Positions 1,219 through 14,706 of a DNA stretch of 16,187 bases are shown here, piece by piece. A model generated the notes under the pieces. It ran no database searches. It saw nothing but the letters and a program-made list of their open reading frames with translations, and had not been told where the DNA came from. Location of the stretch: the NCBI GenBank assembly GCA_029256665.1, contig JAQSXN010000013.1, forward strand, positions 1 to 16,187. Reading direction: 5' to 3'. This stretch comes from Paenibacillus sp. (GTDB lineage: Bacteria > Bacillota > Bacilli > Paenibacillales > Paenibacillaceae). Position 1 is the stretch's first letter. Each line of letters begins with the position of its first letter. Made by a program: the position numbers and the translations under genes.

Positions 1219-2142
1219 CTACATCATGTTTCGCAGCAGCCAGTAGATGCTTATCGCCAGCAGCACGCTTGTCGTCGCCGCAAGCCCCTTCAGCCAGCCG
1301 GGCGTTGCCGAGGGCCGCCGCGTCTCGCGCCTGTGCATGAGCAGCCGCCAGGCCTCGGCTCCTTCCGTCGCGTCCGCGAAGCCGCCTTCAAGCGCCTTCT
1401 TGAGCCAACCCGCCACCGGCTTCAGCACAGGGCTATGCGTGAGCAAAGCGGTCAGCTCCTGCGTCGATCGGTTCTGCGGCAGCAGCTCTTTGGTCAACGC
1501 GTGAAGCCGCTTAGGCTCGTACAGCTGAATGCACAGCACGGCGAAGGAAAACAGGTCGTACTTCGGGTCGGCCGATCGGGCGCCGCTGTTCCAGTAGCCC
1601 CGGTCGTAGATTTCCGTGAATTGGCGGACGCTCTTGCCGATTCCCGTCACGCCGCCGAAGTCGACGAGCTCCACATGTCCGTAGTCCGCCACCATGACGT
1701 TCTCGACCTTGAGATCCCCGAATACCCAGCCAGCGCGATGCAGCTTCGCCAGCTTGCCCAGCAGATTAAGCCCGACCAGAGGGAACCACTGCGAGCCCTG
1801 CTGCTTCAAGTACGCGTCGAGCGTCGTTCCCCTTACGTAGCGCATTATATAGAAAGGATATTCTTTGCCGCCCGGTCCGTACAGATCGTCAACGTCGAAC
1901 AAAAAGGGCTCCATGCCTTGGCCCTTCTGACCCGCAAGCGACTTCAGCACGTTGATCTCGGATTGCAGATCGACGGCGTCGGCCCCCGCCTTGAGCGCGT
2001 ACCAATCCCGATCCTTCTGTACCAGGTACACCTTGCCGTTCGCGCCCTCTCCAAGGAGACGCTCCACCCGGTAGCGGCCCCCCTTCCACTTGCCAACGAC
2101 GATCGTCCCCCGCCTAAGCTCCAACTTAAACGACGTAGTCAC
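1219..2142 (-). CDS. yabT: YabT-like membrane-anchored Ser/Thr protein kinase
   Basis: This 307-residue protein has a eukaryote-type kinase fold: glycine loop GEGANGKV (31-38), catalytic lysine in YALK (K51), an alpha-C glutamate near E62, catalytic loop FGDLKVEN (141-148) and metal-binding DFG (161-163). The loop lacks the His-Arg of HRD, so it is a non-RD kinase. A basic juxtamembrane stretch, HRRETRRP (about 270-277), precedes one hydrophobic segment near 286-304, giving a tail-anchored topology. B. subtilis YabT has the same plan: it is a forespore membrane kinase activated by DNA that phosphorylates RecA. Assignment here rests on the domain plan plus position between yabS and tilS. The start is a GTG that overlaps the end of yabS by 17 nt; an in-frame TGA lies just upstream, so no longer form is possible. 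Another membrane-linked kinase of unknown target is the alternative. Confidence 0.85.
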   Translation of the reverse strand: MTTSFKLELRRGTIVVGKWKGGRYRVERLLGEGANGKVYLVQKDRDWYALKAGADAVDLQSEINVLKSLAGQKGQGMEPFLFDVDDLYGPGGKEYPFYIMRYVRGTTLDAYLKQQGSQWFPLVGLNLLGKLAKLHRAGWVFGDLKVENVMVADYGHVELVDFGGVTGIGKSVRQFTEIYDRGYWNSGARSADPKYDLFSFAVLCIQLYEPKRLHALTKELLPQNRSTQELTALLTHSPVLKPVAGWLKKALEGGFADATEGAEAWRLLMHRRETRRPSATPGWLKGLAATTSVLLAISIYWLLRNMM

Positions 2143-2860
2143 CCATCATCCCATCCGTTCCGTATCTGCTATTCCTGCCCGCATCCTCGCCCTGTCCCTG
2201 CCGAAAATAATCCACGGCCTGCATGATGGCCGGGCCCGTCGGCGTCGTGCCCCCCATCTGCAGCTTGGGGAAAATCGATTGCACGCCGTTCAGATGATCC
2301 GTCCAAGCAAGGTCAAGCACGCAATCATCGCCGTGCCGCGAGCCCGGGAAGTGGAATACCGCGATCTGGCTTCTTCCTTGCCGCGCCTGCAGGCTCAGCA
2401 TCAGATCGTGGATCGCCTCCTCCACCGCCGCAAGCTTGGGCTTCATGCTCGCGCTTGCGTCGATTAGCAGCGCCACTTGCAGCCCGGACGTTTCGCCCAG
2501 CTCGTCGATCACCCGCACGACCTCGCCTCGCTTCTCCGGCGGCAGCGCTTCAATGGCGCCGTTGCCGAGGACATGCTTAAGCTCCTTCTGCACGGCCAGC
2601 TGAATCGTCTGGACGACCGTCTTGCGCGTCATCATCTGAACCGTCTGGGAGAGCTGGCGCATATTGACAAGCCGGCTCAGACCGCCGCCCGCTCTCGCGA
2701 TCTCGTCTATCTCCGAAGCGCCGAGCTCGCCGACATCCCCGTGATCGAGCACGCCTACGACGTTGACCGCGATGCCTTCCGACTTGGCATGGGCCGCCGC
2801 CACGACCGGACTCATCCCTACGTTGGAGCAACCATCCGTAATCAACAAAATCTGTTTCAT
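2126..2860 (-). CDS. yabS: YabS-like VWA-domain protein
   Basis: The product has 244 residues. B. subtilis yabS, next to spoIIE and yabT, encodes a VWA protein of the same size whose biochemical role is not established. A metal-ion-dependent adhesion site (MIDAS) is visible: DASAS at 134-138 and the threonine motif GGTTPTG at about 203-209. The third element, an aspartate in a strand-TDG motif (ILLITDG), sits at the extreme N-terminus (4-10), before DxSxS instead of after it. The two halves therefore look circularly permuted. I start at the ATG at 2860, because GGAGGG lies 7 nt upstream. An in-frame ATG at 2899 would add 13 residues but would put this ribosome site inside the coding region. 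It is the first gene of the yabS-yabT-tilS run and its stop codon overlaps yabT. Confidence 0.88.
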   Translation of the reverse strand: MKQILLITDGCSNVGMSPVVAAAHAKSEGIAVNVVGVLDHGDVGELGASEIDEIARAGGGLSRLVNMRQLSQTVQMMTRKTVVQTIQLAVQKELKHVLGNGAIEALPPEKRGEVVRVIDELGETSGLQVALLIDASASMKPKLAAVEEAIHDLMLSLQARQGRSQIAVFHFPGSRHGDDCVLDLAWTDHLNGVQSIFPKLQMGGTTPTGPAIMQAVDYFRQGQGEDAGRNSRYGTDGMMGDYVV

Positions 2861-2867
2861 CCCATAT

Positions 2868-2873
2868 CCCTCC
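2868..2873 (-). promoter_or_regulatory. Ribosome binding site that fixes the yabS start
   Basis: GGAGGG on the minus strand sits 7 nt before the ATG at 2860. It decides between this ATG and the upstream in-frame ATG at 2899. Confidence 0.8.
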
Positions 2874-3022
2874 ATAGTCCGCCTGAGCGAATTTCGCAAA
2901 AAGCCTTTTCTATCAGCTTTGCCTATTTTGGAAGAGATAAACTTAGCTAGAGTCGAAAAAAGAAGGGCTTGCCATGGCGTATTTCCCGCCCGCGCCTTGC
3001 ACGGACGCCAACAATTGCCACT

Positions 3023-3628: not shown

Positions 3629-4864
3629 TTACAACGGCTTCATGCCGCCCGTCAGCTTCTCCGCCAGCGCGGGCAGGTCATGCCCCTTAAGCGCGCCCTC
3701 AACCAGCGCCGGCAGCATGGCCGGGGTGCAGGCGAAGGATGGCGTGCCGTCCCGCGCGAACTGTTTGGCCACGCCCTCGTCGTAATAGGGCTGCCCTTGA
3801 TCCGACAATGCCAGGAGGCAGATGGTGCGCACCCCCGCCTCGCGCATTTCGCGCATCCGGCGAATGAGACCGGCTTGGCTTCCGCCCTCTAGCAAGTCGG
3901 AGATAAGAATAAACAGCGTCTTCTTGGGCTCCGTAATAAACTGCTCGCAATACTGCACCGACTTGTGAATATCCGTGCCGCCGCCGAGCTGGATGCCGAA
4001 CAGCATATCCACGGGATCGTTCGCGCATTGCTCCGTCAAGTCCACGACCTGCGTGTCGAACGCCACGACGCGGGTGTCCAGCGCCGGCATGCTGGCGAAG
4101 ATGGAGCCTACGACGGAAGCCCAGATGACGGAATCGGCCATGGAGCCGCTCTGGTCGATATCGACGATAATCGTCCATTCCTTGCTGCGGCGGGCCCGGT
4201 CGAAATAATAAAATTTCTCCGGAATGATCTGCCGCCGTTCCGCGCTGTAATGCTTCAGGTTGCGCTGAATGGTCCGCTTCCAGTCTATGCCGGACAGCGA
4301 TGGCAGCGGGGAATGCTGCCTGCGATTAAGAGCGCCCGTCACCGCCCGCCTGATGTCGGTATCCAGCCGCTTCTTCAAGTCGTCGACCACCGCCTGCACG
4401 AGCAGCCTCGCCGTCTCCTTGGTTTTCTCGGGAATCTTGCCCTTCAGCGACATCAACGTGCCGACCAGCCCGATATCCGGCTTGACCGTGGCCAGGAGCT
4501 CCGGCTCGAACAGCAGCTGTTTCCAGCCGCGGCGTTCCATGGCATCATTCTGAATGATCGACACGACATCCTCCGGGAACAGACTGCGCACGTCGCCCAG
4601 CCATTTCGCCAACCTTGGCGCCGACTTGCCCGAGCCCGCGCTCCGCCCGCCCGAGCCCAAACCCGCCGCGCCGGCATTGCCCGACTCTGCGCCGCCGGTA
4701 TCGTCGTAGATCGCCGCGAGCGCTTCGTCCATGATCCGCTCGTCATCGGTTAGCGTAAGAACGGCCGCCGCCCCGCCGCCGCTTTGGGCCAGCTGCTCCT
4801 CCGCGGCCTTGCCCAGCACGAGACGCCATCGCGACCACAGCTCTTGATCGAATTCGGCGCTCAT
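3629..4864 (-). CDS. CoxE/YehP-like VWA-domain protein of the cassette
   Basis: This 411-residue protein has a C-terminal VWA domain with a complete MIDAS in the usual order: DQSGS (237-241), threonine in GGGTD (T297) and aspartate in LISDLL (D323). Before it come a helical N-terminal region, a Gly/Ser/Ala-rich linker (about 57-80) and a charged helical segment (about 90-225). VWA proteins paired with MoxR AAA+ ATPases (ViaA with RavA, NorD with NorQ, CbbO with CbbQ) link the ATPase to its target. By analogy this is the substrate-contacting partner of the ATPase encoded two genes upstream. The ATG at 4864 follows the DUF5682 stop after 3 nt, so translation is probably coupled. It is the last cassette gene and corresponds to E. 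coli YehP by domain and order. The substrate is unknown. Confidence 0.9.
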   Translation of the reverse strand: MSAEFDQELWSRWRLVLGKAAEEQLAQSGGGAAAVLTLTDDERIMDEALAAIYDDTGGAESGNAGAAGLGSGGRSAGSGKSAPRLAKWLGDVRSLFPEDVVSIIQNDAMERRGWKQLLFEPELLATVKPDIGLVGTLMSLKGKIPEKTKETARLLVQAVVDDLKKRLDTDIRRAVTGALNRRQHSPLPSLSGIDWKRTIQRNLKHYSAERRQIIPEKFYYFDRARRSKEWTIIVDIDQSGSMADSVIWASVVGSIFASMPALDTRVVAFDTQVVDLTEQCANDPVDMLFGIQLGGGTDIHKSVQYCEQFITEPKKTLFILISDLLEGGSQAGLIRRMREMREAGVRTICLLALSDQGQPYYDEGVAKQFARDGTPSFACTPAMLPALVEGALKGHDLPALAEKLTGGMKPL

Positions 4865-4867
4865 AAG

Positions 4868-7216
4868 TCAAAAGTCCTCAAAGTCAAATTCGTTCAGCTC
4901 CTCGATTTGCTTGGTTTGCTGCTCGCTGAGTTCTCCGCCGAGAAGCTCCGCCGCTTGCTCCGCGCCGACGCCCCACAGCTCCCCCAGCACTTCGGCCACC
5001 ATGACCTTCTCGCGCTGCGAGAACACGCTGAAAGCTCGCCGCAGAAACACCAGCGCCCGCGCGAATTGCTCCCGCTCCAGGCCCGCCATATAGTTGTTCA
5101 GCTGCTCCCACAGGCTGATACGCGATACGAGCGCGTAGCGGTTGCGCTGCGCGAGCCCCTCGAACCAGCCCGCGCCCAGCTCGGCGGGCACGCCCGGCGA
5201 CAAGCGCCGCGACACTTCTCCCTCGCAGTCGGCAGCCGACAAGATGCCCCGCTCCATTAGAATCGCGCAGGCGAAGCCCGACAACCGCGGATTGCGATCG
5301 TCCCGGCCGGACAGCTCCTCCAGCTGGCGCACCCACAACGCTTCGTCGACGCTCTCGCCATGCTCCTGCGCAACGCCGTTCAAGCTGTTCATCGCCGTGA
5401 TCATCTCGGTGGCGGCTTCATCGTTGCAGCCGCTGGCCTCCAGCAGGAACAGGCAGGCGCGCAAGAACAGCTTTTCCATCAGCGGCACTAACGGCGCGGT
5501 ATCCAGCTTCCTAACGTCGCCGTACGAGACAATGACAGCTAGTTGCCGCACGGCCTCCGCCAGCTGCACCACGTCCCGGCTGTCTGCCGCTAGCCGTTGA
5601 AGCGCCGTCGTGCTGGCTTCCAGCTGCGACGCCATACCGCACATGCACGCGACCTGGATCAGCGCGGACGCTTCGGCGATGCTGGAGCAAGCAGCCAGTT
5701 TTTGACCTAGCGTATAGGCCGCGGCAATCTCGATCGTCTCGCCTAGCAGCGTCGCCTCCACCGCTTGAATTTCGGCTTCCGGCGTCCATTGCAGCACCCA
5801 ATGCTCCGCCCAGTTCGCCCCTTGCTGCCCGCTCGGCTTCCACTGGGCGAGCGAAATGCCTGCGAGCGCCAGCCTGTGCAGGAAGAACGAGCGATGCAAG
5901 TCCAGGAACGCCGCTTCCTCCGTCTTCACGCGCCGATTCTCGCGCAGGTCGAGCGCAAGATCCTGGGCGACCGCCGTCCGGTATTTCTCCAGCTTGAGAC
6001 GCTTAAGCTGCCGGTTAAGATCGTCCTGCACCGGCGTCTGGCTGACGCCTTCGGCAAGCGATCCGATGCCGGTCCCGACATCGAGAGCGGCCAGCGGCTC
6101 GGCTACGACGGAGAGCTCGCCCCGTCCCAGCAGCGTGCGCGCGGCATCGTGCAGATCAAGGAGCGTCGGCTGCCCGCCCTCGTGCAGCGCCGCCAGCGAC
6201 TCCGCCATCCGGACCGCTTCGATCACTTCGGCCGTGGAACGGTGCGTTCCCGACTCGCGCAGGCTGCGCGCGACGGAGGACATATAATAATGCGGCAGCT
6301 CAGCCAGCTTGCCCGACTGCATGCACGCCCACATCCGCTCGTAGTAACCCGGAGCCTTATTGCCTGCCCCGTAACCCGATAGCGAAGACAATCTGTAATA
6401 CGAGTAGGGCATCATCGTCCGGCGCGCCGCCAAGGATGGTAACAAAGCCAGCTCCTCGTCGGACATGGCGCCGTCCAGCGTATCCAGCGCGGACGCGTGA
6501 TAGGCGCCGCATACGACGACAATGCCGCCCGGCGCGTGCCCCTGCTGGATCGCTTCCGCGACGCGGCGCTTCATGAAGCTTTCCCGCACCGCGTTATACG
6601 CGAACTCCCCGGCCGACCGCAACCGCTCCTCGCCGATCGACATCTCCCGCAACGACGCGGAGAACGACAGAATCGCTTCGCGATACGCCCTCGGAGACAG
6701 ATTATGCTCGTAGTGCCTCTCCCAATACGTGTCGTAGTCCGGCTCCCCCGCAAGGGAAGCGATTCGGTCGTACAGGAAAGCCTCCTTCGTAACCGGAGTA
6801 TCCTGGGAATCGGCTTCCCCCGCCGCCCCCGGCTCCATCCGCCCGTCGCCGCGCTTCTCCTGCAGCGCCAGAACGATCCGCGACGGCAGATCGATAAAGG
6901 AAGCATGCGCGCTATGGGCCGATGCCCAGCGCAGCGCTTCGTATTCCGGCGAATAAGCGGCGAACGGCCACAATACTGTGCGCACCGGGATTTCCTCGGT
7001 ATAGGCAAGAATCGCGACCGGCGGCTTCGTAGCCGGATGGACGAGATGCCGGATTTCCTCATCGGCGTCCGCGGGGCCTTCGATCAATACGGCCGTAGGC
7101 CGTATGTCGTCCAGATACCGCCGCAAGTGCCACGCGCCCGCGGGAGAAAGATGCCGAACGCCAAAGATATGTACGCCCGAGGCGGTCGATACACCCAAGG
7201 CGGACGCTCCGCTCAT
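4868..7216 (-). CDS. DUF5682 (YehM-like) protein with hydrolase-like N-terminus
   Basis: This is a large, probably cytosolic protein of 782 residues with no signal peptide or membrane segment. The N-terminal 250 residues carry FGVRHLSPAG (GxxH, 19-22), LIEGPAD (E46), FIDLP (D109), RESFM (211-215) and VCGAYH (GxxH, 237-240). Paired GxxH motifs with an acidic residue and an R-[DNE]-x-x-M motif are the hallmarks of the TraB/ChaN/EreA (Tiki) superfamily, some of whose members are metal-dependent proteases or hydrolases. Enzymatic activity is inferred, not shown. The rest is mostly alpha-helical, without recognised motifs, and ends in an acidic tail (EELNEFDFEDF). The ATG overlaps the MoxR stop codon by 4 nt and has AAGGAG 8 nt upstream. 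By size and order (MoxR, this gene, VWA) it corresponds to E. coli YehM, an uncharacterised protein. Confidence 0.85.
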   Translation of the reverse strand: MSGASALGVSTASGVHIFGVRHLSPAGAWHLRRYLDDIRPTAVLIEGPADADEEIRHLVHPATKPPVAILAYTEEIPVRTVLWPFAAYSPEYEALRWASAHSAHASFIDLPSRIVLALQEKRGDGRMEPGAAGEADSQDTPVTKEAFLYDRIASLAGEPDYDTYWERHYEHNLSPRAYREAILSFSASLREMSIGEERLRSAGEFAYNAVRESFMKRRVAEAIQQGHAPGGIVVVCGAYHASALDTLDGAMSDEELALLPSLAARRTMMPYSYYRLSSLSGYGAGNKAPGYYERMWACMQSGKLAELPHYYMSSVARSLRESGTHRSTAEVIEAVRMAESLAALHEGGQPTLLDLHDAARTLLGRGELSVVAEPLAALDVGTGIGSLAEGVSQTPVQDDLNRQLKRLKLEKYRTAVAQDLALDLRENRRVKTEEAAFLDLHRSFFLHRLALAGISLAQWKPSGQQGANWAEHWVLQWTPEAEIQAVEATLLGETIEIAAAYTLGQKLAACSSIAEASALIQVACMCGMASQLEASTTALQRLAADSRDVVQLAEAVRQLAVIVSYGDVRKLDTAPLVPLMEKLFLRACLFLLEASGCNDEAATEMITAMNSLNGVAQEHGESVDEALWVRQLEELSGRDDRNPRLSGFACAILMERGILSAADCEGEVSRRLSPGVPAELGAGWFEGLAQRNRYALVSRISLWEQLNNYMAGLEREQFARALVFLRRAFSVFSQREKVMVAEVLGELWGVGAEQAAELLGGELSEQQTKQIEELNEFDFEDF

Positions 7217-8307
7217 GAATTAAGCTCCTTGCAGGCCGTGTACAGCCCGCGCCACTCTTCGCCGCGCTTCTTCATGACGTTGTCGAGATATTCCTTCCAT
7301 ACGAGTCGATCCTTCTCGTCGTCCTTGACGACCGCCCCTTGCAGCCCTGCCGCCAGGTCGGCGTCGCGCAGCTCGCCGTCGCCGAAGCTTGCCGCAAGCG
7401 CCATGCTGCCCGTAAGCAGGGAGATCGCTTCAGCGGTCGAGATCGCGCCGCCGGGCGACTTGATCTTCTCCTTGCGATCCAGCGACATCCCGCCGCGGAG
7501 CTCCCGGAAGATCGTCACGACCTTGACCAGCGCCTCCTCCGCGGGAGCCGCAGCCTGCAGATCGTATTGCGCGGCGATTTCGCCCACCCGCTTCCGCACG
7601 ATCTCCACCTCAGTCTCCAGATCCGGCGGCGCCGGCAGCACGATAATGTTAAAGCGGCGCTTGAGGGCGGCGGACATTTCGTTGACGCCGCGGTCGCGCG
7701 TGTTGGCCGTCGCGATGATCGAGAACCCTTTGCGCGCGTTCATCTCCTTGCCCAGCTCCGCGACGGAGATCGTCTTCTCCGACAAGATGGAGATCAGCGC
7801 ATCCTGCACCTCCGACGCGCAGCGGGATATTTCCTCGAAGCGCGCGATGCCGCCCCCCTCCATGGCCCGCATGATCGGGCTCTGCACGAGCGCTTCCGGC
7901 GTCGGTCCGTTCGCCAGCAGCATCGCGTAGTTCCAGGAGTAGCGCACCTGCTCCTCCGTCGTGCCCGCCGTGCCCTGGACGACGAGGCCCGAATTGCCGT
8001 AGATGGCCGCAGCCAAATTCTCGGACAGCCAGGACTTGGCCGTGCCCGGCTCTCCGATTAACAGCAGCGCGCGGTCGGTGACGAGCGTCGCGATCGCCAT
8101 CTCCACCAGCCGCTTGTTGCCGATATATTTGGGCGTAATCGAGCGACCTCCCGCTTCTCCCCCGGTAATAAACGTCAGCACCGAGCGGGGCGACAGCTGC
8201 CAGCCCGCCGGCACCTTGCCCGTATCCGCCGCCCGCAGCGCTTCGAGCTCCTCGTGAAACAACCGTTCCGCCGGCAGGCGGAGCACATCCTGCAACGCTT
8301 CCATCAT
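7213..8307 (-). CDS. MoxR-family AAA+ ATPase (YehL-like)
   Basis: This 364-residue ATPase remodels proteins in an unknown pathway. Visible motifs are Walker A GEPGTAKS (85-92), a Walker B region ARFEEIS in which the usual Asp-Glu is Glu-Glu (158-159), a sensor-1 asparagine in TANTRDRG, and a putative arginine finger in ALKRRFN. The GEPGTAKS loop and the short C-terminal helical lid fit the MoxR group, which typically works with VWA proteins. Such a protein is encoded two genes downstream. Residues 1-60 form an extension before the AAA+ core. The start overlaps the stop of the HEAT-like gene as ATGA; GAGGTG lies 5 nt before the first ATG, and a second ATG follows at once, so the start could be 3 nt later. 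The gene is equivalent to E. coli YehL by domain and neighbours. Confidence 0.92.
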   Translation of the reverse strand: MMEALQDVLRLPAERLFHEELEALRAADTGKVPAGWQLSPRSVLTFITGGEAGGRSITPKYIGNKRLVEMAIATLVTDRALLLIGEPGTAKSWLSENLAAAIYGNSGLVVQGTAGTTEEQVRYSWNYAMLLANGPTPEALVQSPIMRAMEGGGIARFEEISRCASEVQDALISILSEKTISVAELGKEMNARKGFSIIATANTRDRGVNEMSAALKRRFNIIVLPAPPDLETEVEIVRKRVGEIAAQYDLQAAAPAEEALVKVVTIFRELRGGMSLDRKEKIKSPGGAISTAEAISLLTGSMALAASFGDGELRDADLAAGLQGAVVKDDEKDRLVWKEYLDNVMKKRGEEWRGLYTACKELNS

Positions 8308-10109
8308 GCTTGCACCTCGCTCATCATATCGATTATATATTGCAATTGCTCTGCCGAAGTATAGCGATAACGTCCCTTTAACGCGGTAAGCCTGTCGCGG
8401 TAGGAAGCAGGCAGCAGCGTCAGTTGGCGAAACATCTCGTAGTCGAACCGGTACAATCCCCTCTGCTTCGACTCCAGCATGGCTACGATCGCTTCCCGCC
8501 TCTCTTCCTCGCTAACGCCGACCCTGTCCAGTCCTTCCCATAAAACAATGAAGCTCTCTTCGCTCTCGGACATCGACTTCCGGAACTTCTCCATCAGATA
8601 AACCGAGGCTTCCTTGCTTTCGGAGTTGCTTGGCCGCGACATTACCCCAGCGACCAACGCGGCATCCGCGCGAATCGCCCAGTCCAGCCAACGCGGGTCC
8701 CAATGGACGTCCAGCTCGCCTTGCGACGGAATCCGCACCTCACGGCCATACTCCTCGCCTTCTCCCCATATCCTCGGATACATGCGGGACGACGACTGGA
8801 TGAGCGCTCGCTCCAGCTCCTGCACGAGCGCGTCCTTGTACGAGCCTTTGACGTAACCCGAATAATGCGAAAACACATCTTCCGGCGTCCGCAGAATCCG
8901 CGACATGCGGAAGGCATAGGACAAGTAGCCGGCGTGGCTGCGCTCGAGCTTAAGCAGTCGCTCCAGAACGCGTTCGTCCGGCTGTCCCGAGGCATGTCGC
9001 GCGGCATCGTGCACCATCCGAGTCCAACCCAGCCCGTGATAGAAAGCACCTTCGCCAAGCACCTGGTCGAAGAAGACATCCAGCTCCGGAGCGGACTTGC
9101 CCCCCAGCGCGTCCAAATACGCCTCCAGCCGCCCCCAAATCTTGGCGAGCTTCTCCTTGTCGCCGGCCAAGCCGCCGGCCTCGGCCAAAGCCTCGCTCGC
9201 ATCGCGCGCGAGCCGGGCCGTCAGCGGGCTGCGCTCTCTGCGCGACAGCACCTCGGCCGCCACGTCGCGGTCCTTGCCCGCGAACGCCGCGTGCAGCCGC
9301 GCCTGCGCCCGCTCGCCGTCGCTCTCCGCGAGCGCGGCGTATGCCGCTGCCCGAATCGCTTTTTTGCCATCCGCCGACCACTCCAGGAGATCGTTCTCGT
9401 ACGCGGCATGCCCGGCCAAGCAGCCGATCGCGCTGATGCGCACCGTCTCCGAGCCCTCTGCTGCCGCTTGCCTGATGTACCCCAGCTCCTCATCGCCGCC
9501 GACCTTGCCGACAACCTCTACCGCGCGAGCGTCGGGACGTCCGCCTATGATGTCGATCCGCGCCTTAAGCAGCGGGAGCAGCTGCGGACCATAAGACGGC
9601 AGCACGTGCTCCTTCACGTAATCGGCGATCTCGGCGTACGGATCGTTCAGAGCGCCGATGGCCGGCAAGACGAGCCGCAGATCGCGGAACAATCCGTCTT
9701 GATAAGCCTGCACGATAATCTCTTGGCGCCCGCCGCCCGAGCTTTCGAGCGCATCCTGCACCTCGGTCAACCGCCGGCTGGAGAAGGCGGTCGGCAGATC
9801 GACCGGCGTGCCGTCAAGATCGCGCACCTCGTCCTCCGGCGCCGTCTGTCCTTGCGTGTGCAGCACCGAGCTCAGCAGCAGCGTCAGCTCCTGCAGCCGC
9901 TCCGCGGAGGAGCGATCGTCGCCGGCAACCGGCTCGATGAGTCCCTCGACGCCTTCGCCTAGCCGCTTGAAGACGGGCGCCCGCTCGCCGAGCTGTTTGA
10001 ACGTAGGCACGAGTCGCTTAAGCCTGAAGTCTCCGGCGGCCAGATCGCTGCCCGCCATATATAATCGGTTAAGCTCCTCCCGAAGCTCCCGCAATAAAGT
10101 CGTGCTCAT
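8304..10109 (-). CDS. HEAT-like helical-repeat protein of the cassette
   Basis: I do not recognise a named family. The protein has 601 residues, is entirely soluble and almost all alpha-helical. Between about 130 and 300 there are successive short amphipathic helix pairs typical of HEAT or PBS-lyase repeats, for example ELGYIRQAAAEGSETVRIS and then AIRAAAYAALAES. The C-terminal half has longer helices and tryptophan-containing stretches such as HWDPRWLDWAIRAD. Such proteins normally act as scaffolds, and here the likely partners are the MoxR ATPase and the SWIM protein encoded on either side. An ATG at 10115 would add two residues, but GGGGGG (10116-10121) abuts it; the same G-run is 6 nt from the ATG at 10109, which I prefer. 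The 3' end overlaps the MoxR start by 4 nt. E. coli has the unrelated-looking YehI in the comparable operon. Confidence 0.8.
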   Translation of the reverse strand: MSTTLLRELREELNRLYMAGSDLAAGDFRLKRLVPTFKQLGERAPVFKRLGEGVEGLIEPVAGDDRSSAERLQELTLLLSSVLHTQGQTAPEDEVRDLDGTPVDLPTAFSSRRLTEVQDALESSGGGRQEIIVQAYQDGLFRDLRLVLPAIGALNDPYAEIADYVKEHVLPSYGPQLLPLLKARIDIIGGRPDARAVEVVGKVGGDEELGYIRQAAAEGSETVRISAIGCLAGHAAYENDLLEWSADGKKAIRAAAYAALAESDGERAQARLHAAFAGKDRDVAAEVLSRRERSPLTARLARDASEALAEAGGLAGDKEKLAKIWGRLEAYLDALGGKSAPELDVFFDQVLGEGAFYHGLGWTRMVHDAARHASGQPDERVLERLLKLERSHAGYLSYAFRMSRILRTPEDVFSHYSGYVKGSYKDALVQELERALIQSSSRMYPRIWGEGEEYGREVRIPSQGELDVHWDPRWLDWAIRADAALVAGVMSRPSNSESKEASVYLMEKFRKSMSESEESFIVLWEGLDRVGVSEEERREAIVAMLESKQRGLYRFDYEMFRQLTLLPASYRDRLTALKGRYRYTSAEQLQYIIDMMSEVQA

Positions 10110-10115
10110 CTGCAT

Positions 10116-10121
10116 CCCCCC
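10116..10121 (-). promoter_or_regulatory. G-run ribosome site that decides the HEAT-gene start
   Basis: Six G residues on the minus strand, overlapping the TAG stop of the SWIM gene, lie 6 nt before the ATG at 10109 and 0 nt before the ATG at 10115. The spacing supports the inner ATG. Confidence 0.6.
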
Positions 10122-11569
10122 TAATACCAGAGTCGAATGATTTGCGAAGATTGAATGATGGATAATGGCTGCGCGATAAGACGCCCCGTATGGGGCAGAT
10201 GGTGAAACATAAGCAGCATGGCCGCCCCTTCCAGCCGCTCCCGCGGCAACAGGCGCAGCAAGCTCGTCGTTCCGCGGCCGAACCGGGGCACGTCGCCAAG
10301 CTGCAGCATCTGTCCGCCGCGATCGACAAGGACGAGCTCGCCCGATGACGTTTCGCGCACCTGCTCCACGCCTAGCAATAAAACGGGCTGCTTGTTGCCG
10401 AGCGGGTTTTTAAGCTCATTCTTGACCCGTTTAACAGCCTCGGCCAGGGACGGCTCCGCAATCTCGAGCGCCTTTGCCAGATGCCCCTCGTTCACCGGCG
10501 ACGGCGTCATCCCGTCAAAGCGGACTCGTCGGTTCATCGTGCCGGGGTATGCATACAGCTTGCTTACAGAGGCGGCTTCGAAGAAGCTGTCCTCTTCTTT
10601 TATATGTTTGGCGGCCTTGTACGGCCTGTAATGCATCGTGCGAAATATCTCGCCCGTGCCCGTATCCAGCCAGTAGCCGGCGTCGACGTACTCCTGCCTC
10701 GCCTCGTCGTCGTAGCTGATAAAGGAGAGCTGCACCAGCTCCCGGTCAAACTCGACAAGGCCGTGCTCCTGGAGCTCCGCAAGCTGCCAAGCATGTCCAA
10801 GCCACTCCTCGATCGCCGATTCGGTATCCGGCGTAAGGTCGGGATCGGCTTGTTTGGCGCTTAGATACGGCCGGCCCTTGCGAATCATCGCGTGAATCAG
10901 CGCAAGCTGCTCCACCGCATCCGCATAAGACGATTCCCGTTCCCCGGCTTCCTTAAGAAGCAGCGCTAGTCTCCGAAGCTCGTTCTGTCCCCCGGGCAAA
11001 AAATGATTGCCAAGCTGCGTCACGTGCTCGCCGATTTGCTTGATTCCTTTGGCGTCGATCGTCGTCAGACCGCCCCGGATCAGCGAATACGCCAGCTTCT
11101 CCAGCAGCGCCAGCCCTTCCAGTTGCGACGCGATTTTTTTGGCCAGGGCGGACTTGTTTACCTTTCTCGGCTTGGCCGCTTCGGCGGAGTCTCCCTCGGC
11201 TTCGACCTTCGCCTTCTGAACCTGACGCTGCTCCGCCTTCTCGCGTTTAGCCTCCAGATCGGCCGGCACCTCCGCCACGGTAAACTCACGTCCGCCCGTA
11301 TAGGCGTACAAGAGTCCCAGGCCATGCTTGCAAGGAAACTGCCTGCTGGGACAGCTGCAACGAAACACCGGCTTATCCGGCACGACAAAGTCGGCCGAAC
11401 ATTGATAACCGGAGCTGCCGCTCCCCGCGCACTCTCCGAAGAGCAGCTCGCCGCCCTGCGAACGATGCAGGCTCGACAGCTTGTTTTTCTTCACCAGATC
11501 GCGTCCGTTCTTGGCCGCGGCCAGATTGGGGGCGAGCGAATCCACGAACGCTTCCGTCAATGCAATCAT
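10121..11569 (-). CDS. SWIM zinc-finger protein (YehQ-like), first cassette gene
   Basis: This 482-residue protein has a clear SWIM zinc site, CSCPSRQFPCKHG, with C71, C73, C80 and H82 as ligands. SWIM domains bind DNA or proteins. The start of the SWIM fold (GYQCSADFVVPDKPVFRC) precedes the cluster, and GLGLLYAYTGG follows it. Next comes a charged, coiled-coil-prone stretch (about 104-145, rich in K, E, A and Q), then a long mixed region without motifs I recognise. The ATG at 11569 has AGGAGG 9 nt upstream. Another ATG closer to that site (ATG AGA TGA) terminates at once. The stop codon is 11 nt before the preferred HEAT-gene start. In E. coli the SWIM gene yehQ is at the other end of the operon. 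A recognition or targeting role for the complex is inferred. Confidence 0.9.
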   Translation of the reverse strand: MIALTEAFVDSLAPNLAAAKNGRDLVKKNKLSSLHRSQGGELLFGECAGSGSSGYQCSADFVVPDKPVFRCSCPSRQFPCKHGLGLLYAYTGGREFTVAEVPADLEAKREKAEQRQVQKAKVEAEGDSAEAAKPRKVNKSALAKKIASQLEGLALLEKLAYSLIRGGLTTIDAKGIKQIGEHVTQLGNHFLPGGQNELRRLALLLKEAGERESSYADAVEQLALIHAMIRKGRPYLSAKQADPDLTPDTESAIEEWLGHAWQLAELQEHGLVEFDRELVQLSFISYDDEARQEYVDAGYWLDTGTGEIFRTMHYRPYKAAKHIKEEDSFFEAASVSKLYAYPGTMNRRVRFDGMTPSPVNEGHLAKALEIAEPSLAEAVKRVKNELKNPLGNKQPVLLLGVEQVRETSSGELVLVDRGGQMLQLGDVPRFGRGTTSLLRLLPRERLEGAAMLLMFHHLPHTGRLIAQPLSIIQSSQIIRLWY

Positions 11570-12833: not shown

Positions 12834-13802
12834 TTGACTGACCACAATGATCAGGACGAACTTGCCGCGCGCAGGCGGGGCAAGCTGAGGATGCTGCGAT
12901 TTGATAGCAACGGCAAGGACTTGGTAGAATCCGAGAAGCCGCAGGAAACATTCGACGACGTCGCGGGGCTGGACGAGGTAAAGAAGAAAATCAGGCTTAA
13001 CTTTATACTCCCGCTCAAGCAGCCGGAGCTGTTCAAGGCCTACGGCCGCGAAGCCGGCGGAAGTCTGCTGTTGTTCGGCCCTCCGGGCTGCGGCAAGACG
13101 TTCCTCGCGCGCGCCGTCGCGGGAGAGATCGACGCGAACTTTATCCATATCGAGCTTCAGGCGATTCTGTCCATGTGGGCGGGCCAGAGCGAGAACAACC
13201 TGCACGATATCTTCGAAAAGGCGCGCGAGCACAAGCCATGCGTCATCTTTATCGACGAGCTGGACGCGATGGGCGGCAGCCGCAATCAGATGCGCCAGCA
13301 TCATGACCGCATGCTCGTCAACCAGTTGCTCTTGGAGCTTGACGGCATCCGCGAGCAGAATGAACAAATCTTTGTCATCGGAGCGACCAATACGCCGTGG
13401 TACCTCGACTCCGCGCTGCGCCGCCCGGGACGCTTCAACCACCTGATCTTCGTCCCGCCGCCGGAGGAGCAGGAACGCGGGAAGATTCTGGAGCTCAAGC
13501 TGGCCGACAAGCCGACGGACAAACTCGATTTGGCCCGCATCGCGCGCGAGACCAAACATTACTCCGGGGCCGATCTGGAGCAGATCGTCAAGGATGCCGT
13601 GGAGTCGGCGATGGAGCGCATGCTGGAATCCGGCAATCTGGAACCGATTACGCAGGATGATCTCAAACGATCCGCCAAGAGCCGAAAGGCGACCACGTTG
13701 GAATGGTTCGCCACCGCCAAGAACTACGCGACGTTCAGCGACGTCAATCAGGACTATCAGATCGTGCTGGATTATATAAAGGCGACCGGACTTAAGGCAT
13801 AA
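12834..13802 (+). CDS. Classical AAA-family ATPase
   Basis: This 322-residue protein is essentially one AAA module. Motifs are Walker A GPPGCGKT (82-89), pore-loop-like SMWAGQSE with W115, Walker B VIFIDELD (D141, E142), sensor 1 in ATNT (N186), and the second region of homology LRRPGRF with arginine fingers near R197 and R200. These resemble p97, Vps4 and FtsH modules, so a hexameric threading ATPase is likely. Only about 40 charged residues precede the module, so substrate choice may depend on a partner. The start is TTG: the frame closes upstream at a TAG with no ATG or GTG between, and AAAGGGTG lies 8 nt upstream. The TPR gene starts 31 bp after the stop, so the two probably form an operon. 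It is unlike MoxR and unrelated to the cassette ATPase. Confidence 0.9.
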   Translation: MTDHNDQDELAARRRGKLRMLRFDSNGKDLVESEKPQETFDDVAGLDEVKKKIRLNFILPLKQPELFKAYGREAGGSLLLFGPPGCGKTFLARAVAGEIDANFIHIELQAILSMWAGQSENNLHDIFEKAREHKPCVIFIDELDAMGGSRNQMRQHHDRMLVNQLLLELDGIREQNEQIFVIGATNTPWYLDSALRRPGRFNHLIFVPPPEEQERGKILELKLADKPTDKLDLARIARETKHYSGADLEQIVKDAVESAMERMLESGNLEPITQDDLKRSAKSRKATTLEWFATAKNYATFSDVNQDYQIVLDYIKATGLKA

Positions 13803-13833
13803 CACGGCTCGCGCAGAAAGGATGGGGCCTCCC

Positions 13834-14706
13834 ATGTCCATCAACGAAGATACCGCCGTAAGGTACGATAAGGTTGGCCGTCTCATCGGCTGGAGGCGGT
13901 ACAAGGAAGCGGCCGCGGAGGCGGAAGCGCTGCTCCGCGACGAACCCGAAGACGCGCATGCATACGCGCTGCTCGCGCTTGTCCACGTCCACACGGAAAA
14001 TTACGACGCCGCTCTCCACTGGACCGGCGAAGCGCTGAGGCGCGATCCCGATAACGCGCTGGCCTGGCTCGTGCGCACCAACGCCTATCACGACGGCGGC
14101 AAGCTGGACAAGGCGCTGGAATCCGCCGCGGAAGGGATGCGCGTCGATCCGTACGAGCCGCATTATTATTTTATCCGCGCCAATATTACGATGAAGCGCG
14201 GCCGCTACGCGGAAGCCAAGGCGCTCATCGAGACCGCGCTGGAGATGAGTCCGAACAACGCGGCTTATATGGCCAGCTTGTCCTACGCGGAGGCGCTGCT
14301 CGGCAACCACGCGGCATCGCGCCAGCATGCGCGGGAAGCGCTGAAGCTGAACGTGGAGTCGGATTCCACGTTCCTCATCCTCGCCTGGTCCGCCGAGCAG
14401 CGGGGCGATTACGAAGAGAACTTGAACATGCTCAAGGAAGCGATCCGGATCGACCCGAACGACAAGCAGATCCGCGACGCCTATATGGACGGCCTGCAGA
14501 AGAGCTATAAGATGTACCGCGTTCTGCTCGCTCCGTTCAAGCTGTTCAAGCGGATGAAGCCGTGGCAAATCCTCGTTACCTGGCTTGCCATCGCGATTAT
14601 TTTCCGCCCGCTGATCTTCGTGTTCATTATCGTCTACGCGCTGACGCATTGGTTGACCAAGCTGCTGGTCCACGTCAAGGTATTCGGCTGGAACTTTAGG
14701 CGATGA
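13834..14706 (+). CDS. TPR protein with two C-terminal membrane segments
   Basis: This 290-residue protein has a run of about five to six tetratricopeptide repeats from about residue 12 to 220. Typical helix-turn-helix units include DPDNALAWLVRTNAYHDGG, SPNNAAYMASLSYAEALLG and the final KEAIRIDPND. A basic linker (FKLFKRMKP) leads into two closely spaced hydrophobic segments at about 243-258 and 259-275, ending in a basic tail. The TPR part is therefore probably cytosolic and anchored at the membrane, where it could recruit the AAA ATPase encoded just upstream or its substrates. An in-frame ATG at 13822 directly abuts AAAGG and has no spacer, so I use the ATG at 13834. The start site remains uncertain by four residues. 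No named family is recognised. Confidence 0.85.
   Translation: MSINEDTAVRYDKVGRLIGWRRYKEAAAEAEALLRDEPEDAHAYALLALVHVHTENYDAALHWTGEALRRDPDNALAWLVRTNAYHDGGKLDKALESAAEGMRVDPYEPHYYFIRANITMKRGRYAEAKALIETALEMSPNNAAYMASLSYAEALLGNHAASRQHAREALKLNVESDSTFLILAWSAEQRGDYEENLNMLKEAIRIDPNDKQIRDAYMDGLQKSYKMYRVLLAPFKLFKRMKPWQILVTWLAIAIIFRPLIFVFIIVYALTHWLTKLLVHVKVFGWNFRR

Follow-up and report, generated by a model that had tools for sequence, protein, structure and literature searches.

Midasin (Rea1) carries an AAA motor and a metal-ion-dependent adhesion site (MIDAS) within one giant protein, and in the RavA-ViaA, NorQ-NorD and CoxD-CoxE systems a MoxR AAA+ ATPase is combined with a CoxE-type VWA protein bearing a MIDAS, a combination shared by the locus reported here. 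MoxR proteins fall into seven named subfamilies, one of which is YehL, and E. coli K-12 possesses two members, YehL and RavA (accessible text of PMC3893208). We analysed a 16,187-nt stretch of Paenibacillus sp. DNA (contig JAQSXN010000013.1 of assembly GCA_029256665.1; hereafter ‘the window’), in which a cassette of five adjoining minus-strand open reading frames at positions 3629..11569 encodes, in this order, a SWIM, a HEAT, a MoxR, a DUF5682 and a VWA protein (abbreviated S, H, M, D and V). Successive spacings from SWIM to VWA are +5, -4, -4 and +3 nt (gaps positive, overlaps negative), the first widening to 11 nt if HEAT translation starts at the second Met (601-aa form). The tight packing described in an earlier note on this stretch was thereby confirmed, and we went on to assess its proposal that the five proteins are subunits of one complex.

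The five genes are kept as one unit. In an even sample of 119 genomes from the order (MoxR counted at E ≤ 1e-30, VWA at E ≤ 1e-10), we detected DUF5682 in 61, MoxR in 61, VWA in 62, HEAT in 40 and SWIM in 39. All 64 DUF5682-holding clusters comprised M-D-V on one strand and in one order, which rules out chance neighbours, and S-H lay directly ahead of M-D-V in 39 of them. This cluster count omits three DUF5682 rows, namely a second piece in each of G061 and G023, plus a match of 20 bits in G087 C1. Outside the clusters, the only strays were one weak HEAT match (G080, E 8.8e-4) and, in G114, a VWA remnant interrupted by a stop; the genes are hence not found mostly apart in relatives, the finding that would have spoken against a unit. 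Six clusters read SHHMDV, including that of G061, where a stop divides what is really a single HEAT gene, and a cluster scored as SSHMDV contains a single SWIM gene matched in two pieces. Tandem HEAT genes inside the cassette were seen in G103, G075, G107, G049 and G066. Two loci are decayed: L069 (G061), with a stop in HEAT and DUF5682 in two frames, and L070 (G114), reduced to the VWA remnant beside a 1957-aa open reading frame.

A MoxR scan of named genomes extended this picture to Bacillota, Bacteroidota, Gammaproteobacteria, Verrucomicrobiota and Deferribacterota, many of the records being metagenome bins. Among the best 80 of at least 589 stretches, hence the most window-like loci, 68 contained all five genes (65 as S-H-M-D-V, two as H-S-M-D-V and one with two HEAT genes), so that the co-occurrence that the note proposed to test holds within and beyond the order. 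The 12 incomplete loci comprised three S-H-M-D at a contig end, two M-D-V, two M-D, one M-S-H and four lone MoxR genes. When ten genomes were searched (seven with incomplete and three with complete loci), DUF5682 was present in eight; in L132, L141 and L147 it lies away from MoxR, and L136 and L140, which lack it, are both small bins. Contig ends do not account for the parts missing from L163 (M-D alone) and L147 (M-S-H). L141 and L132, both from Bacteroidota, pair a lone MoxR with a DUF5682 gene elsewhere, indicating a core that is splittable yet kept. Spacings of at most 30 nt, calculated from longest frames, which shortens gaps, were found for M-D in 70 of 73 pairs, D-V in 62 of 69, H-M in 56 of 70 and S-H in 53 of 71. 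The 400 frames flanking the 80 loci and the window fell into 315 families, of which 275 were singletons (a number inflated by the greedy caller, some of whose frames are spurious in GC-rich DNA), and the commonest family occurred at eight loci, all in one Paenibacillus clade. Because the flanks vary while the cassette stays, the conserved unit is the five genes rather than a larger island. An unverified gut ‘bacteriophage’ scaffold (L196, MT835988.1) also carries MoxR, DUF5682 and VWA and is probably bacterial DNA.

Gene fusions revealed which of the proteins may touch. DUF5682 and VWA_CoxE share a single 1187-aa frame in Paenibacillus sp. 32O-W, whose genome (G072) returned no SWIM or HEAT match in our search, and an annotated 1255-aa protein in Streptomyces atratus. 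SWIM and DUF5691 are joined in an annotated 1009-aa protein of Hymenobacter sp. HDW8; its sister record shows two overlapping SWIM/DUF5691 frames and DUF5682 in three frames, and sequencing frameshifts in one of the two records are likely. Since such fusions occur in distant lineages, they point to D-V and S-H contacts. Together with the conserved five-gene unit and its variable flanks, they support the idea of subunits of one complex.

Residue conservation was assessed on complete frames with a start codon only (72 SWIM, 80 MoxR, 72 DUF5682 and 69 VWA rows from the 80 loci). The MoxR protein (7213..8307, minus strand; 364 aa; AAA_5, E 4e-38) contains a Walker A motif, GEPGTAKS, at residues 85-92 (8032..8055, minus), and G85, G88, K91 and S92 were present in 80 of 80 homologues, as were E158, E159, N202, R217 and R218. 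It displays the features of the YehL subfamily, namely full-length likeness, Walker A, the Walker B-like Glu-Glu pair, the sensor Asn, the Arg pair and yehM/yehP-type neighbours. Its best PDB sequence matches are to Midasin (E 8e-12), and NorQ is among the others (E 1e-4). The VWA protein (3629..4864, minus; 411 aa) consists of a VWA_CoxE domain (E 2e-48) with a full MIDAS, DxSxS...T...D: D237-x-S239-x-S241 is encoded at 4142..4156 (minus), T297 and D323 follow downstream, and all five residues were found in 69 of 69 rows. No PDB sequence relative of this protein was retrieved at E ≤ 0.1. With Walker and MIDAS residues complete, the MoxR/VWA core suggested in the note is supported.

The DUF5682 protein (4868..7216, minus; 782 aa; Pfam E 1e-151) is composed of a predicted TIKI-type N-terminal domain, residues ~9-290 (6347..7192, minus), and a helical-repeat C-terminal domain. 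Seven residues, H22, E46, D109, E91, R211, E212 and H240, were invariant in 72 of 72 homologues. In a set of 39 members, H22, E46, R211, M215, G237 and H240 were present throughout and G19 in at least 90%, matching H197, E223, R397, M401, G422 and H425 in eight of eight TraB proteins; both families share the string GxxH - 24/26 - E ... R-x3-M ... GxxH in equal order and spacing. The Pfam TraB/PrgY/GumN model covered the DUF5682 protein of L192 nearly end to end (positions 5-257 of 263, E 2.4e-5) at 24.8 bits versus a cut-off of 26.8, and reached 28.9 bits for this protein with its neighbours. TraB and ChaN were the only non-self Pfam families matching two of the 39 members (best E 7e-4 and 4.5e-3), and ChaN and EreC appear in the DUF5682 fold list; profile and fold scores are weak. 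An hhalign comparison of DUF5682 with TraB was not significant, and DUF5682 returned no PDB sequence relatives (best E 0.2 and 0.25, to unrelated proteins). We could not identify the best fold match, 7w5z_E, as TraB, since a TraB profile retrieved from the PDB no more than a synthetic construct and, through its N-terminal part, a superoxide dismutase and copper amine oxidases. Both the TIKI His/Glu residue set and an RRSP-like 2His/2Glu arrangement have been described (accessible text of PMC6254334). The Glu that the latter places two positions before the first His is replaced by V20 or Ile in eight DUF5682 sequences, and TraB proteins have Ser there. It is well supported from these comparisons that DUF5682 starts with a putative TIKI/TraB-type hydrolase domain, set on a helical-repeat tail, which agrees with the note's description of it as hydrolase-like and makes the protein a probable cutting enzyme.

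The SWIM protein (10121..11569, minus; 482 aa) has a SWIM-domain N-terminus at residues 2-99 (Pfam E 9e-5), a helical middle and two predicted OB-like beta domains at residues ~262-478, the tandem OB-like region spanning 10136..10786 (minus). The zinc-ligand motif C71-x-C73-x6-C80-x-H82 (CxC...CxH; 11324..11359, minus) was kept in 71 of 72 homologues, with one gap. In the structural model, a ZSWIM8-like finger domain is followed by the tandem OB-like folds, and the fold lists include DNA sensors, so the modelled SWIM protein is probably a nucleic-acid-binding subunit, for DNA or RNA. A SWIM protein of Porphyromonas, PG1037, binds 8-oxoG (accessible text of PMC3747172); its finger spacing differs from that of the window protein. 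The HEAT-like scaffold protein (8304..10115, minus; 603 aa) matched HEAT_2 at E 4.6e-5 and 24.1 bits, below the curated cut-off of 27.7, and HEAT_2 was found in 28 of 30 homologues at E ≤ 0.1. Its slot is annotated as DUF5691 in Deinococcus, Hymenobacter, Rhizobium and Methylosinus. Support for homology to DUF5691 amounted to one Pfam match among the 30 homologues (1.8e-5), with an hhalign probability of 3%. Pfam thus bore out the domain calls of the note for SWIM, MoxR, DUF5682 and VWA, with the HEAT call of the window protein below cut-off; none of the five window proteins reached an NCBIfam family cut-off.

The core occurs in two forms. Window-like S and H are missing from 25 clusters in the order: that of 32O-W, and 24 that belong to a second form, type B, with MoxR proteins only 44-46% alike to that of the window (type A). 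In all eight type B loci fetched, of the 24, the order was MoxR-DUF5682-VWA-DUF4132-SWIM (MoxR positions for L066 and L073 were taken from the MoxR survey, not from the fetched loci), and in Paenibacillales, of the two partners after VWA, DUF4132 is ~1180 aa and SWIM 585-622 aa long. E. coli K-12 shows yehI(DUF4132)-K-L-M-P-Q, and Sinorhizobium RAC02 AAA-DUF5682-DUF4132-VWA-SWIM. As the earlier note had stated, the last three cassette genes are homologous to and collinear with yehL-yehM-yehP (41% to YehL over 357 residues, 29% to YehM and 33% to YehP). Its further statement that the SWIM gene matches yehQ was rejected in that form: BLASTP found nothing (best E 8.3), and the E. coli form has a different SWIM protein. 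The two do share a SWIM finger, and a profile-profile comparison of the remainder of both SWIM families is suggestive only (probability 70%, E 4e-5). Kinship of HEAT with DUF4132/YehI was not supported (BLASTP best E 0.35; hhalign probability 12%), and Pfam detected no DUF4132 match among the five window proteins. Because the SWIM proteins cannot be aligned by BLASTP and HEAT-DUF4132 kinship lacks support, the yeh locus is, judged by sequence, a cousin with exchanged partners and not a collinear copy. A MoxR tree sets type A apart from the main type B group, which includes E. coli YehL, and does so on starred branches; one long-branched Streptomyces row falls outside both groups, and the tree came with long-branch warnings. 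Both forms coexist in G087, G107 and G115, and, by DUF5682 scores alone, in G172, G203, G205 and G214. A third arrangement was noticed in Streptomyces fungicidicus and S. cadmiisoli (L199, L200), in which two unannotated genes are followed by VWA, MoxR and a DUF5682 of divergent sequence, whose 968-aa L199 version has no Pfam match.

How might these parts work together? Our reading, held tentatively and at slightly less than an even chance, is a single ATP-dependent five-protein machine in which MoxR/VWA drives a TIKI-type hydrolase targeted by the SWIM-OB protein. In the mechanism that we infer, down to its substrate and trigger, a MoxR hexamer coupled via the VWA MIDAS would remodel or open the DUF5682 enzyme or feed it substrate, and the HEAT protein would hold the parts together. 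The SWIM-OB protein would take the machine to its target, most likely nucleic acid or nucleoprotein, where a bound protein might then be cut by the TIKI domain at a peptide or ester bond. In E. coli, yehI, L, M, P and Q would encode the same machine, with DUF4132 replacing HEAT and with another SWIM protein.

MoxR family members have been described as maturation factors (accessible text of PMC3893208), and the CoxE-type VWA paired with MoxR, as well as the NorQ match, would suit a chaperone of the NorQ-NorD/CoxD-CoxE/RavA-ViaA type, in which MoxR and VWA assemble a client or insert its cofactor while DUF5682, HEAT and SWIM serve as client or specificity parts. Such a role would call for a client, yet no recurrent client enzyme stands beside the cassette, where 275 of 315 flank families were singletons and the commonest neighbour was confined to eight loci of one clade. 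Moreover, we know of no maturation-chaperone system with a TIKI-type domain bearing the invariant residue set or with a SWIM-OB protein, and we consider this explanation unlikely, if worth keeping in mind.

Regulatory evidence for the context of the machine is scattered. In E. coli, yehF, which we take to be molR, encodes a WGR protein and heads the run yehF-H-I-K-L-M-P-Q, and 9 nt upstream of it stands CTGGATAAAATTACAG, which departs from CTGTN8ACAG at one position. In the accessible texts, molR is listed as LexA-regulated (PMC11039860) and is placed among LexA genes (PMC4576408), and the yehF mRNA row of an SOS time course rises from -0.12 to 0.8-1.1 (PMC11002266). In D. radiodurans, DRA0166, a DUF4132 protein, is under DdrO control and induced by mitomycin C (accessible text of PMC8533742). 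A type A cassette of Deinococcus taeanensis (L193:6065-6081) displays at its promoter, as a single case, a DdrO-like palindrome, TTACGCCAGAAACATAA, located 19 nt upstream of where SWIM is annotated to start and overlapping the tail of a TACAAT. It is one mismatch from TTATGN7CATAA and two to three from the published DdrO consensus, and sixty Markov copies of the 19-kb D. taeanensis locus contained no such one-mismatch site.

Other observations qualify or oppose this evidence. A 26-kb E. coli stretch contains 13 one-mismatch CTGTN8ACAG sites, and yehL has, by eye, its own upstream region behind a hairpin, so that the regulation of yehF may or may not extend to yehL-Q. DinR regulation was not found in Paenibacillales, where exact DinR cores occur in only four of 79 upstream regions (0.5 expected from shuffling), none was found upstream of the window cassette, and 11 further loci yielded no convincing LexA box, only two one-mismatch sites. 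The setting most consistent with the evidence as a whole, we infer, is DNA damage or a related stress, and the machine perhaps works there. A more specific version, in our estimate a distinctly unlikely one, is a TIKI peptidase driven by ATP and gated by DNA (or RNA): SWIM-OB would load on damaged or single-stranded nucleic acid, MoxR-VWA would unfold or pull off the bound protein, and DUF5682 would cleave it. If true, bacteria would possess a protease that clears nucleoprotein and is made of components unlike those of any known one, and E. coli yehLMPQ would be a hidden core-genome example of it.

The earlier note had also raised a defence role and suggested looking for defence islands. If the cassette resembled the MoxR-vWA ternary systems and acted in conflict or against phages, SWIM would sense foreign nucleic acid and the TIKI domain would be the effector. 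The distribution, which the note had proposed to examine, is patchy, with DUF5682 in 61 of 119 genomes of the order and 30 of 51 of the genus, and spans several phyla. Genomic addresses change; MoxR was found on 40 plasmid-labelled records, a count inflated by several of chromosome size (4.9-11.9 Mb; e.g. NZ_LT559118.1 and NZ_CP141089.1), and on one Iodobacter plasmid a restriction-modification system adjoins the cassette. The window MoxR narrowly passes the bpMoxR cut-off (28.9 vs 27 bits, partial coverage), the SWIM fold lists include DNA sensors, and vWA-MoxR-VMAP systems have been reported near type III CRISPR loci (accessible text of PMC10910872). For the flanks, 147 proteins taken from 42 loci were scanned (three neighbours in the window and 144 of the 211 candidate frames), and they matched 123 PADLOC families at least once at 1e-5, most strongly UzuA (7.5e-60). 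However, no PADLOC or Pfam family occurred in more than four of these 147 proteins, a weak test as it had no control set, and among the five proteins themselves PADLOC-DB 2.0.0 gave only mad8, a weak generic AAA match, to MoxR (1.6e-4). Key residues are invariant, with no variable sensor or effector slot seen. In E. coli, at least 80% of the length of yehL-Q lies at one place in 5162 of 5426 genomes, and 5320 of 5322 such places are chromosomal, as befits the core genome. A phage-defence reading is therefore not supported, and we rate it as quite improbable. Slightly less probable still is general protein quality control, in which a machine resembling a disaggregase-protease would deal with proteins damaged by stress and SWIM would serve as an adaptor for proteins (as in ZSWIM8-CUL3) rather than bind nucleic acid. 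Against it, the OB-like folds in tandem and the regulation of DUF4132 and WGR proteins by DNA damage both point, weakly, to nucleic acid.

As for the surroundings of the cassette, the source assembly comprises 4.1 Mb in 630 contigs and is 64% complete, and the nearest relatives of the window MoxR in the tree are Paenibacillaceae. The note had placed the five genes under one promoter; a consensus scan found none upstream of the SWIM gene on its strand, where only a TATAAT was spotted by eye. Window positions 1219-2142 and 2126-2899 (minus) encode a PrkT-like Ser/Thr kinase (267.1 bits vs a cut-off of 280) and a VWA protein. This pair is like the yabT-yabS pair adjoining spoIIE in Bacillus; SpoIIE of the source assembly is on another contig (C57), and the cassette may have its place within a sporulation cluster that has been rearranged. 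On the plus strand, an FtsH/CDC48-type AAA protein (12834-13802; PADLOC IetA match, 4.9e-42) is followed by a TPR protein (13822-14706), and no protease partner of the AAA protein was present among the window proteins scanned.

Annotation pipelines have already named the individual parts. New with respect to the literature searched are the five-gene unit, the two outfits in which its core occurs, and the interpretations of DUF5682 as TIKI-type and of the SWIM protein as OB-containing; no paper naming DUF5682 was met in this literature, which covered openly readable articles, nor was an established function for any yeh gene, in line with the note. The three invariant DUF5682 residues and the probable nucleic-acid-binding subunit make the function of YehL directly testable in E. 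coli. If our reading of a five-protein machine is true, a MoxR-VWA motor has been coupled to a TIKI-type hydrolase, a pairing that the literature searched did not show, and has been kept in two interchangeable outfits.

Compared with known systems, the cassette resembles E. coli yehI-L-M-P-Q most closely: M, D and V are homologous, and both loci include, besides these, a SWIM protein and one further, large partner, whereas the yeh locus has DUF4132 and a 614-aa SWIM protein in place of the SWIM-HEAT pair in front here. It differs from the MoxR-VWA pairs in the TIKI-type DUF5682 protein, present in 64 of 64 clusters, and in its scaffold and SWIM subunit, and from Midasin in being made of separate proteins with an extra enzyme. 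With the MoxR-vWA-beta-propeller/iSTAND ternary systems (PMC7159879) it shares the MoxR-vWA pair and a weak bpMoxR match; the accessible text of that paper contains none of the terms ‘YehL’, ‘TraB’ and ‘SWIM’, and Pfam (E ≤ 0.01) found no beta-propeller, VMAP or iSTAND third component in the five proteins. DUF5682, finally, appears akin to the TIKI/TraB/ChaN/Ere superfamily in its fold list, its His...Glu...His pattern and its TraB spacing, but would differ from it in carrying a 480-residue domain of helical repeats and in being coupled to an AAA+ motor.

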